From positions 16,559-55,667 of the forward strand of contig NZ_AOJG01000004.1 of the NCBI RefSeq assembly GCF_000337375.1: a stretch of 39,109 nt of DNA, written 5' to 3'. Below, one piece after another: positions 14,521 to 18,579 of the stretch (positions within the stretch are counted from its first letter, which is position 1; every line of letters begins with the position of its first letter). Made by a program: the position numbers and the translations under genes. The notes under the pieces are model-generated. The model was not told where the DNA came from. It saw nothing but the letters and a program-made list of their open reading frames with translations, and searched no databases. This stretch comes from Halorubrum lipolyticum DSM 21995. GTDB taxonomy: Archaea > Halobacteriota > Halobacteria > Halobacteriales > Haloferacaceae.

Positions 14521-15576
14521 TCACGTCTCGAACCCGTTCTCCGCGACGAGCGTTCGGACGCCGACGTACGCGACCGCGGCGATACCGACGTAGGCGACCA
14601 CCAGCGCCGTCGTAGCCGCGTCGGCGCTGTCGATCGCGAGGCGCGCGACCGCGTTCGCGGGGCCGCCCGCCATCGCCGTGGCGCCGCCGAAGAGGACGAG
14701 CACGCCGATCGAGTAGAGGAACTGCGCCGCCCGCCGGTCGGGCGCGAGCGCGGAGATGGCGAGCGCGAGCGCGACGACAAGCGTCGTGAGCGCGGTCATG
14801 AGGACGAGGATCGAGGGGACGTTGGCGACCGGGGTCCCGTTCGCGCGGAGGAGGAGGAGCCATAGGAGCGCCTGTCCGGGGGCGATCGCGACCGCCGCCA
14901 GCGCCTTTCCGTCGACGATCTCCCCGAGCGTGACGGGCGCGACGCGCAGCAGCTCGAAGGTCCCCTCGTCGATCTCCTCGGTGATCGAGTCGACCACGAG
15001 CGACCCCGAGATGAAGACGGGGAGGAACACGAGGACCGGAATCAACACGGTGTACGTGAACGTGAAGTACGGGCTGGTGCCGGTGCGCTCCGGGAGGGGG
15101 AGCGGCGACTCGCTCAGGGACGCGGTCCGGTCCGCGCGCTCCTGTCGCTCGTAGGTCCGGAGCAGGTCGCGGAGCTGGACGACGATCACGGTGGTCTCCA
15201 CCGTGGCGTCCGGGGCGGTCACGGTGGCCGAGATCCGCCCGTCGTCGTGCCGGTTCGCGACCACCACCGCGTCGGCGGCGCTGCGGTCGAAGGCGAGCCG
15301 CGCCGCGCCGGCGTCCTCGTAGCGCGTGACCGAGGCGCCCTCGACCTCGTTCGCGGCGCGCTCGAGGTCGCTCACGGCGTCGCCGGCGCCCGCCACCTCG
15401 ACCTCCGCGCCGCCGAGCGAGCCGGGGTCGTACATCGAGACGAGCCCGACGACGAGGAACGACGAGAACGCGGCGATGAACAGCTGGATCCCGATCGCGA
15501 GCAGGATCGTCTTCTCGGCGCGCAGCCCCGACAGCTCTCTCCCGGCGATCGTCAGACGGCCGTCTCGGCTACGCAT
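14521..15576 (-). CDS. ABC-2 type transporter permease
   Basis: This 351-residue membrane protein is the first of two permeases in a three-gene exporter operon. There is one membrane helix near the N-terminus (ILLAIGIQLFIAAFSSFLVV), then a large extracytoplasmic domain of about 130 residues, then about five clustered helices with the ABC-2 signature stretch VLVFLPVFISGSLVVDSITE followed by an EIDEGTFELLRVAPVTLGEI block. That block, with Glu and a short amphipathic helix, is typical of NatB/YhaP-type permeases. It starts 8 nt inside the end of the upstream permease gene, indicating coupled translation. The substrate is unknown. Confidence 0.88.
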   Translation of the reverse strand: MRSRDGRLTIAGRELSGLRAEKTILLAIGIQLFIAAFSSFLVVGLVSMYDPGSLGGAEVEVAGAGDAVSDLERAANEVEGASVTRYEDAGAARLAFDRSAADAVVVANRHDDGRISATVTAPDATVETTVIVVQLRDLLRTYERQERADRTASLSESPLPLPERTGTSPYFTFTYTVLIPVLVFLPVFISGSLVVDSITEEIDEGTFELLRVAPVTLGEIVDGKALAAVAIAPGQALLWLLLLRANGTPVANVPSILVLMTALTTLVVALALAISALAPDRRAAQFLYSIGVLVLFGGATAMAGGPANAVARLAIDSADAATTALVVAYVGIAAVAYVGVRTLVAENGFET

Positions 15577-17515
15577 AGACGCGCATCACCCCGAAGTTGT
15601 ACGCGGCGTGGATCAGCGTCGCCAGCGCCAGCGTCAGGACGTAGTACGTCCGGCTCCGGCTCGCGCCCACCGCGGCGACCGCCGTCGCGAACCCGTGGAG
15701 CGCGAGGGGCGCGAAGAACAGCCCCACAACCGCGAGGGGTGGGAGCCCCTCCAGTCCCGCCACGCTCCCGAACGCGGCGCGGCCGACGTACAGCTCCGTG
15801 AGCCCGACCGCCTGCACGACCGCGGTGGCCTTCTCCGCGAGGAAGAACCCGACCGCGGAGGCGACGCCGACCGCGACGGCGACCCGATCGGTCCGGGCGA
15901 AGGCGTCGCGCTCGAACCCCGCGTAGAGGTGGACGCTCTTGGCGAGCTCCTCGATGAACGCGATGGTCACTAAGAGCACGGGGATCGACACCGTCACCGG
16001 CAGCGCGAACAGCAGCGCGACCGCCAGCAGTTCCGCGACGAACACGAAGGGGATCGTGCAGGCCGTGAGGAACGCGACCGGCGCGAGCGCGCGGAGCCGC
16101 TCTCGGAGCGACCTGCTGGTCGAGTCCGACTCGCCGACGGCGGTCGACTCGCCGACCGCCGCGAGCCGCACCGCCAGCGCGTCAAGGAACTTCCGCCCGA
16201 CGGGTTTCTGGGTGAACATGTCCTCCTCGCGGTACACCCCGAGCCCGAGTCCGAACAGGAGCGCGGCCCCGACCGTCATCGGCCCGGTCGAGAAGAGGAC
16301 CTCACCCAATCCGACCGCCTCGCCCTGCAGGTCGAAGACGACGAGCGTGAGCGGCGAGACGAGCGCCACGGGCGTGACGTTCGTGAAGATCGCCGGCACG
16401 AACGCGTACGTCGTGAGGAGGACGCTCACGCCCACCGTGACGAAGGTGAGCTCCTTGAACGACCGCGCGAACATCGCGCCGACGAAGGTGGCCGCGAGGA
16501 AGGTCAGCGCCACCGGGAGCACGGCGACGACCGACAGCGCCCCGCCGCCGACGGCGACCGCGATGAGCGTCGTGACGAGCGCCGCGGCCGCGACGTACGG
16601 GAGCGTCTTTCCCGCGACGATGTCGACCGGCGACAGCGGCGTGACGAGCAGGGGCTCCCCGCGACGGTTCGTGCGCTCGTCGAGCACCGACGAGCCGTAC
16701 GCCTGGATGAGGAAGTTCATCGGCACGAGGAAGACGAACGCGAGGAGGAGCGAGACGAACGGGAACGGCGGCGCGATCGACCCCGGCGAGCCGACCGTGT
16801 CGGCACCGAACGCCGCGCCGCCGACCGAGGGGACCGCGAAGCCGCCGTCGTCCCCCTCGGCGTCTTCGTCCGCAGTGTCGCTGCCGGTTCCTCCGCTCTC
16901 GTCGCCGGAGCCGCCATCGCTCCCGCCGGAACCGTCGCCGTCGGCGTCTCCGGAGCCGGCGCCGCTTTCCCCGTCCCCGTCTCCGCCCTCCTCCCCGCCG
17001 AGCGTCGAGCCCTCGTCGAGCCCGCTCGTCCGCCCGATATACTGGAGGGTGACGGTGATCGGGAACGCGGCGGTCCGGTTCTCCTCGGCGGCCATCAGCC
17101 GCTCGTTGTGCGCCTCGACGGCCTCGCGGAACTCGGCGGCCGCGGCCTCGCCCTTCCGCGTGTCGCTGGCGCGAACGGCGACGGTCTCGACTGCCCCGGT
17201 CTCTGTCTGCCCCCCGTCGAACACGACGAGGTCGGCCGTGTCGCCGAGCGCGGCGCCGTCGACGGGGACGGCCGTCAGCGCCGGCGCCTCCTCGACCGCG
17301 TCCGCGTACGGGGAGTCGCGGTCGACGGCGACGCGGTACACGTCGCGGTCGACGTCGAGCCCGACGACGCCGGCCGCGAGCCCCCCGCCGAGGACCCCGC
17401 CGGCGACGAGCAGGAGCGCGAGCGCCGCGAGCAGGGTCCGACGGTCGACGCCCCCGCCCGCGCGGGCGGTCTCCCAGCGGGCGACCCGGAGGACCCGTCG
17501 GAGTCGGTCGATCAC
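15569..17515 (-). CDS. ABC-2 permease fused to a PrsW-like intramembrane protease domain
   Basis: This 648-residue protein has two parts. Residues 1-430 are an ABC-2/NatB-like permease: one N-terminal helix, a large outer domain with a Gly/Asp/Ser-rich low-complexity stretch (about 173-224), then about six helices including YGSSVLDERTNRRGEPLLVT and the VTPLSPVDIVAGK block. Residues 475-648 are a second membrane domain carrying the PrsW protease motifs in order: IEELAK (521-526), GFFLAEK with Glu561, LHGFATA with His607, and IHAAYNF with His636. Between them is a short soluble linker (about 430-475). The fusion suggests that proteolysis is tied to the exporter, for instance cleaving or releasing a membrane peptide, but the substrate is unknown. 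It overlaps the ATPase gene by 4 nt upstream and the second permease by 8 nt downstream. Confidence 0.85.
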   Translation of the reverse strand: MIDRLRRVLRVARWETARAGGGVDRRTLLAALALLLVAGGVLGGGLAAGVVGLDVDRDVYRVAVDRDSPYADAVEEAPALTAVPVDGAALGDTADLVVFDGGQTETGAVETVAVRASDTRKGEAAAAEFREAVEAHNERLMAAEENRTAAFPITVTLQYIGRTSGLDEGSTLGGEEGGDGDGESGAGSGDADGDGSGGSDGGSGDESGGTGSDTADEDAEGDDGGFAVPSVGGAAFGADTVGSPGSIAPPFPFVSLLLAFVFLVPMNFLIQAYGSSVLDERTNRRGEPLLVTPLSPVDIVAGKTLPYVAAAALVTTLIAVAVGGGALSVVAVLPVALTFLAATFVGAMFARSFKELTFVTVGVSVLLTTYAFVPAIFTNVTPVALVSPLTLVVFDLQGEAVGLGEVLFSTGPMTVGAALLFGLGLGVYREEDMFTQKPVGRKFLDALAVRLAAVGESTAVGESDSTSRSLRERLRALAPVAFLTACTIPFVFVAELLAVALLFALPVTVSIPVLLVTIAFIEELAKSVHLYAGFERDAFARTDRVAVAVGVASAVGFFLAEKATAVVQAVGLTELYVGRAAFGSVAGLEGLPPLAVVGLFFAPLALHGFATAVAAVGASRSRTYYVLTLALATLIHAAYNFGVMRVYA

Positions 17516-18579
17516 TCGGTCCCCTCCGGCGGCTCCGTCGGTCGCGTCGCGTCGCGTTCGCCCCCTTCCGGCGCGGGGTCTCCGCCGTCCGAGTCACCGG
17601 CGCCCCCGCCGCCCCCGGTGTACCGCCCCGGCATCGGCCGCCCGACGATGTCGAGGAACACGTCCTCGAGGTTCGGCTCTCGAGTGCGGATGTCGACGAC
17701 CTCGCCGTCCGCCGCCGCGGCGGCCTCGCGGACCGCCTCGACCGCGTCCATCGTCGGCACGGTCGTCCGGAACCGGTCGCCGATCTCCTCGGTCGCGGCG
17801 TCGAGGGAGGCTCGGTCGTCCGCGGGGTCGCCGAGGGCGTCGAGGTCGCCGAAAACCTCGGCCAGCGCGTCGGTTCGGGCAGGGAGTACGTCGGTGAACA
17901 CGTGGTACGTCGTCTCGCCGTGTCGCTCGCGGATCCCGTCGACGCTCCCGCGGGCGACGATCCGCCCCTCGTTCATCACCGCGACCCGGTCGCAGACGGA
18001 CTCGACGTGGTAGAGGTTGTGCGCGGAGAAGACGACGGTCTTGCCCGTCTCGCGCAGCTCGCGGGTGAACGCCAGCACGGAGTTCGTCGTCACCGGGTCG
18101 AGCCCGGAGGCCGGTTCGTCGTACACGAGCACGTCGGGGTCGTTGACGAGCGACCGGGCGATGGCGACCTTGCGTTTCATCCCCTTCGACATGTCGCCGA
18201 GCCGGCGCTCGCGGTGGTCCAGTTCGAGCCGGTCGAGCGCGGCCTCGATCCGCTCGTTCGCGGCCTCGCGCGGCACGTCGTACAGGTCGGCGAAGAAGCG
18301 CAGGTACGACAGCGGCGTCATCTCCTCGTACAGGGGCGACTCCTCGGGGAGGAACCCCAACTGCCGGCGCATCTCCGGGTCGTCCGAGGCGAAGCCGGCG
18401 ACCTCGACCTCGCCGTCGGTGGGGTCGACGAGCCCGGCGAGCACCTTCAGCGTGGTCGTCTTCCCGGCGCCGTTCGGGCCGACGATCCCGAACACCTCGC
18501 CCGCTTCGACGGAGAAGGTGCTGTCGACGACGGCGGCGAACTCCCCGTACGTCTTGCACAGCCCCTCCACTTCGATCAT
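17512..18579 (-). CDS. ABC exporter ATP-binding protein
   Basis: This 355-residue ATPase powers the exporter formed with the two downstream permeases. It carries Walker A GPNGAGKTT, the signature LGDMSKGMKRK (a variant with Met-Ser-Lys-Gly, as in NatA-like ATPases), Walker B VLVYDEPASGLDP, and the switch His in VFSAHNLYHVE. The region after about residue 215 is an extra domain typical of NatA/CcmA-like drug or Na+ exporters. It ends in a Gly/Pro/Glu-rich tail. It is the first gene of the operon, with a TATA-like box about 27 nt upstream. Confidence 0.93.
   Translation of the reverse strand: MIEVEGLCKTYGEFAAVVDSTFSVEAGEVFGIVGPNGAGKTTTLKVLAGLVDPTDGEVEVAGFASDDPEMRRQLGFLPEESPLYEEMTPLSYLRFFADLYDVPREAANERIEAALDRLELDHRERRLGDMSKGMKRKVAIARSLVNDPDVLVYDEPASGLDPVTTNSVLAFTRELRETGKTVVFSAHNLYHVESVCDRVAVMNEGRIVARGSVDGIRERHGETTYHVFTDVLPARTDALAEVFGDLDALGDPADDRASLDAATEEIGDRFRTTVPTMDAVEAVREAAAAADGEVVDIRTREPNLEDVFLDIVGRPMPGRYTGGGGGAGDSDGGDPAPEGGERDATRPTEPPEGTE

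Follow-up and report, generated by a model that had tools for sequence, protein, structure and literature searches.

The activity of RasP, an intramembrane protease of Firmicutes, needs the exporter EcsAB, and a membrane 'cleaning function' has been proposed, with the Ecs substrate given as unknown (PMC2996298). Linear peptides derived from lipoprotein leaders require both Eep and EcsAB for their export (PMC7157817). Streptolysin S is served by SagE, a suspected protease, and by SagGHI, which form one ABC transporter (PMC4513790). Myxosortase, a protein with the CPBP fold, processes C-terminal sorting tags (PMC11980579). PrsW, CPBP and APH-1 proteins are distant relatives (PMC3482391, PMC4602095). 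In the published description of PrsW, helices 5 and 6 contribute a conserved His and an HxxxD motif, respectively, in addition to EExxK (PMC4602095).

In the family NF041647 (ABC_perm_CPBP), as in the protein that we describe here, an ABC-2 permease is followed by a protease of the CPBP/PrsW/APH-1 group within one polypeptide (636 model positions). Membership is decided by a score of more than 435 bits to the full-length model. We found no description of a fusion between an ABC-2 permease and PrsW in the open-licence literature that we searched. A paper on the Pyrococcus TFB-RF1 transporter describes no protease domain, and a survey of archaeal fusions mentions neither PrsW nor a protease.

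The window, by which we mean the entire analysed stretch of 39,109 nucleotides from Halorubrum lipolyticum DSM 21995, contains three overlapping genes on the minus strand. The first encodes a DrrA-like ABC transporter ATPase of 355 amino acids (17512..18579; PF00005, E 3.4e-30; DrrA_C, 1.4e-5; TIGR01188, 245.6 bits). Its Walker A (GPNGAGKTTT) and Walker B (VLVYDEP) motifs, as read from the sequence, are both intact. The middle gene (15569..17515) has a GTG start and encodes the fusion of permease and protease, 648 amino acids long; our reading of the open reading frame returns the coordinates given by the preliminary description and places the frame on the minus strand. The last gene (14521..15576) encodes a second, unfused ABC-2 permease of 351 amino acids (PF12698, E 3.8e-15, 56.3 bits, above the cut-off). 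The TGA stop of the ATPase gene and the GTG start of the fusion gene overlap by four bases (GTGA), and the TAG stop of the fusion gene overlaps the ATG of the second permease gene by eight (ATGCGTAG).

The first half of the fusion (residues ~1-436) is an ABC-2 permease, identified by a weak PF12698 match at residues 254-388, by an AF2 model and by fold matches. The full-length model (pLDDT 78.7) has six ABC-2 helices and an extracellular domain, followed by five more helices. The nearest folds to residues 4-435 are those of ABCA4, ABCA1, ABCA7 and NosY (Z 17-18). The locus had been said to encode a full ABC-2 permease; the permease is indeed complete, with its six predicted helices, its extracellular domain and its likeness to ABCA and NosY. 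An ATPase with intact Walker motifs thus adjoins ABC-2 permeases, as in an ABC-2 exporter. In this species, a Gly/Ser/Asp/Glu-rich low-complexity stretch (16765..17035, minus strand, residues ~161-250; pLDDT <50 over most of it) is predicted to be a disordered, acidic part of the extracellular loop that joins helix 1 to helix 2. In more distant orthologues, the protein has mostly only ~530-640 amino acids. Foldseek searches of the PDB with the full-length and domain models returned nothing at E<=0.001, and a sequence search of solved structures returned low-complexity matches only.

The second half (15572..16108, minus strand, residues ~470-648) is a PrsW-type intramembrane protease domain. 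It comprises the last five helices and models well in isolation (pLDDT 92.4, pTM 0.86). Four motifs had been reported for it, and all are present in the reported order and places: IEELAK (E522, E523, K526), GFFLAEK (F557, E561, K562), LHGFATA (H607) and IHAAYNF (H636, Y639, N640). They are spaced as E522-E523-x-x-K526, G556-F-F-x-x-E561-K562, H607 and H636-x-x-Y639-N640, and lie at a relative depth of 0.54-0.63 in four consecutive predicted helices. The domain shows the published PrsW pattern (PMC4602095): EExxK, an intermediate His and HxxxD/N in the last helix, each in a separate predicted helix.

To describe conservation we use an alignment of 61 orthologous domains, some of them only ~25-30% identical to the domain in the window. 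The only invariant columns are E522, E523, K526, F557, E561, K562, H607, H636 and Y639, and all nine of these residues fall within the four motifs. Position 640 is either N or D, with N in more than 90% of the 61 sequences. The Glu and His residues, on whose presence in homologues the preliminary description had staked its reading, are invariant in 61 of 61 domains. The ordered pattern of motifs appeared in none of 200,000 shuffles of the domain and in none of 20,000 shuffles of the whole protein. It is found in 52 of the 5,017 open reading frames at 57 loci; 51 of these frames are longer than 400 amino acids, and the other is a shorter piece that overlaps a fusion gene.

Profile searches give a divided answer. 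The protein in the window has no Pfam or NCBIfam protease match on its C-terminal half, even when the domain is searched in isolation. Thus the PrsW profile check suggested earlier fails for this protein, but it succeeds for 31 of the 61 orthologous domains, which match PF13367 (PrsW) at E<=0.01 (best 1.8e-8). In genome scans, several orthologues score above the curated PF13367 cut-off of 23.5 bits (for example 35.1, 33.2 and 30.5 bits). PF02517 (CPBP/Rce1) matches 0 of the 61 domains at E<=0.01.

Comparison of profiles with hhalign points the same way. Against 26 standalone haloarchaeal PrsW proteins, the profile of the domain aligns with a probability of 95.7 (E 1e-8), and the motif residues are aligned with each other. 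Against a CPBP alignment the probability is 0.3, a negative of little weight since this alignment was rough, with the EE pair in 22 of its 29 sequences. A reverse search with the domain recovers the standalone PrsW of the same genome (1.4e-7). This canonical protein is encoded separately (contig C20, 29250-29831) and scores 147 bits to PF13367; a PF13367 match occurs in 52 of the 59 genomes of the order that were scanned. Judged by sequence, the C-terminal domain belongs to the PrsW family and has diverged past Pfam detection in half of its members.

We rejected membership of the fusion in NF041647: the protein in the window gives no match to the model at E<=1. Two of 50 orthologues match it weakly (best 2.9e-5), and its cut-off is passed in none of the 295 genomes of the phylum. 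Within the trio of ATPase, fusion and permease, only the unfused second permease matches the model, and weakly (E 5.7e-5). Elsewhere, standalone CPBP proteins of ~270 amino acids from one genus (loci L127-L132) match the protease half of NF041647 with 80-95 bits. A separate permease in these genomes matches the first half, and they possibly contain a split version of the NF041647 system.

Orthologues of the fusion occur in 203 of the 293 genomes of the order and in 147 of the 295 genomes of the phylum, including many non-haloarchaeal families. The fusion is not essential to the lineage, because about 90 of the 293 order genomes have no match. These searches covered the order, a sample of the phylum, viral contigs, and collections of plasmids and named controls, bacteria being represented by the last two collections. 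Across ~146 genomes, the protease domain sits within a frame of at least 444 amino acids in every strong match except one frame of 169 amino acids. Weaker extra matches to the domain exist, and those checked are canonical PrsW. The viral contigs searched hold no relatives of the fusion. Among the plasmids searched there is one carrier, a 540 kb plasmid of Haladaptatus salinisoli (NZ_CP085330.1) with a copy of the trio, whose fusion gene is annotated merely as 'ABC transporter permease subunit'. The plasmid trio has a 20S proteasome subunit A/B-like gene in its vicinity.

The order of the genes is as constant as the fusion itself within haloarchaea, where ATPase, fusion and second permease share one strand in 37 of 37 loci. 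Outside the order, the second permease follows the fusion in all 20 loci and the ATPase gene is found in 19 of them, divergently transcribed in all but one of the 19. Since the ATPase gene is mostly divergent outside the order and on the common strand in haloarchaea, it was inverted at some point. There is no fourth conserved gene near the trio; other recurrent clusters are mostly antisense open reading frames of the trio. Hence, the earlier remark that the window has no obvious small substrate gene extends to the 57 loci in related genomes. One lineage-specific neighbour recurs: in no more than 16 of the 37 haloarchaeal loci (e.g. L041 and L054), the second permease is followed by an aldo-keto reductase-like gene, which lies ~1.4-1.9 kb beyond the fusion on its downstream side.

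From the observed architecture, operon, synteny and conservation of catalytic residues, we propose that the trio is a cut-and-export exporter. It would consist of the ATPase and two non-identical permeases, one of them carrying a catalytically competent PrsW domain that acts on membrane peptides. We assign this reading a probability of about 0.5. In such an exporter, the two permeases would sit as a heterodimer on a dimer of the ATPase. Single-span or hydrophobic peptides would be cut by the protease within the membrane, and the adjoining ATP-driven exporter would remove the fragments from the bilayer. Substrates could be what is left of signal peptides or membrane anchors, or else small membrane peptides that form a dispersed class. 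We favour a general class of membrane substrates over one dedicated peptide, because no conserved gene is linked to the trio. A single protein may then do what bacteria split between RasP/Eep and EcsAB/PptAB, or between SagE and SagGHI. A wider version of the proposal is more tentative, and we would bet against it rather than for it: that the fusion is an ancient archaeal polypeptide that cleaves membrane-resident peptides within the bilayer and, together with its ATPase and the second permease, expels the products, either for membrane clearance or as extracellular peptide signals.

The preliminary description had suggested that exporter and protease share one membrane substrate. Its architectural part, an ABC-2 permease joined to a PrsW-like protease beside an ATPase, is supported by profile, conservation and fold, the last only suggestively for the protease half. 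The shared substrate is the best-supported guess, and no substrate was found. This guess draws on a protease domain that stays fused in nearly all of ~146 genomes, on fixed catalytic residues and on the analogy with the bacterial pairs. The role of Bacillus PrsW in cleaving an anti-sigma factor is not directly transferable, because archaea, to our knowledge, have no sigma factors.

Alternatively, an active protease could have its own transporter, or one of the transporter's partners, as its substrate. Such an enzyme might mature, gate or degrade the subunits or a membrane regulator, and the exporter would then carry an unrelated cargo such as a lipid, a drug or an ion. The permanent covalent fusion and the strict synteny of the trio fit this idea, as does the absence of a peptide gene nearby. 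The permease half fits as well, since its ABCA/NosY-like fold is one that handles lipids and other cargo; ABC-2 exporters of this fold also transport lipids and drugs. However, an unsystematic look at both permeases recognised no conserved cleavage-type segment in either, and the bacterial pairs of protease and exporter share a peptide substrate. We consider a protease that acts on its own transporter unlikely.

The PrsW domain might also not cut at all, and instead be a membrane scaffold or a substrate-binding module. The best structural matches of the domain model are indeed non-proteolytic: the gamma-secretase component APH-1 (Z 10.9 over 165 residues, at 4.7 angstroms), a subunit of the BOS complex (Z 10.4) and, lower, SpdC (Z 5.5). 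Rce1 (4cad) follows at Z 4.9. Helical bundles can reach such scores without kinship. VIA-align, which supplied these neighbours, warns that the Z range near 10.9 can be generic for helical bundles, and as a sign of kinship the likeness of the model to APH-1 at Z near 11 is only suggestive. Non-catalytic members of the family are typified by the loss of catalytic residues. Here, in contrast, the orthologues keep the Glu pair of EExxK, the second Glu and the two His residues without exception, even at ~25-30% identity, and a non-cutting domain seems to us distinctly improbable.

Much the same small chance, if anything a smaller one, goes to a dedicated processing and export system for one unlinked secreted product, for example a surface glycoprotein, a C-terminally tagged protein or an antimicrobial peptide. 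Precedents exist in the CPBP-fold myxosortase with its C-terminal tags (PMC11980579) and in SagE and SagGHI, which handle a single peptide. Yet the trio has no conserved linked gene, and its distribution is not that of ArtA-based tag sorting: archaeosortase A is found in 286 of 295 genomes, the trio in about half of the phylum. At 286 of 295 genomes, the co-occurrence of ArtA cannot separate the rival explanations.

That the C-terminal half consists of extra permease helices with a chance resemblance to PrsW would agree with the missing Pfam and NCBIfam match of the protein in the window, but we reject it as having a negligible probability, given 0 of 200,000 shuffles, the invariant residues, orthologues above the PF13367 cut-off, matches in 31 of 61 domains and the hhalign profile match.

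As a rule, an intramembrane protease is separate from the exporter that clears its products. A natural fusion links both activities in one testable complex, and this one has been kept across an archaeal phylum. It adds an archaeal intramembrane protease that is currently concealed under the annotation 'ABC transporter permease subunit'. Furthermore, the fusion is a concrete candidate for the handling of signal-peptide remnants in archaea.

How does the trio compare with known systems? EcsAB/PptAB with RasP/Eep would be like the trio in their way of working only, with an ABC exporter and an intramembrane protease acting together on membrane peptides. They differ from it in being separate proteins, with a site-2 metalloprotease and one permease. 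SagE and SagGHI from streptolysin S-type operons resemble the trio in combining a single ATPase with two permeases and a membrane protease, SagE being a suspected one of the CPBP clan. In contrast to the trio, their proteins are separate, and a precursor peptide and modifying enzymes are linked to them. The ABCA and NosY transmembrane domains have the fold of the permease half, and those structures carry no protease domain.

The PrsW family (PF13367, MEROPS M82), which includes PrsW of B. subtilis and HVO_0408 of Haloferax volcanii, shares with the fusion the EExxK motif, the second Glu motif, the His in the next-to-last helix, the HxxxN/D in the last helix and the profile match. Standalone haloarchaeal PrsW proteins are mostly ~350-420 amino acids long, whereas the core in the fusion is attached to an exporter. 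Finally, the protease of NF041647 is CPBP and that of the fusion is PrsW. The fusion is parallel to NF041647, yet distinct from it: the CPBP version was already known, and the PrsW version appears to be new.
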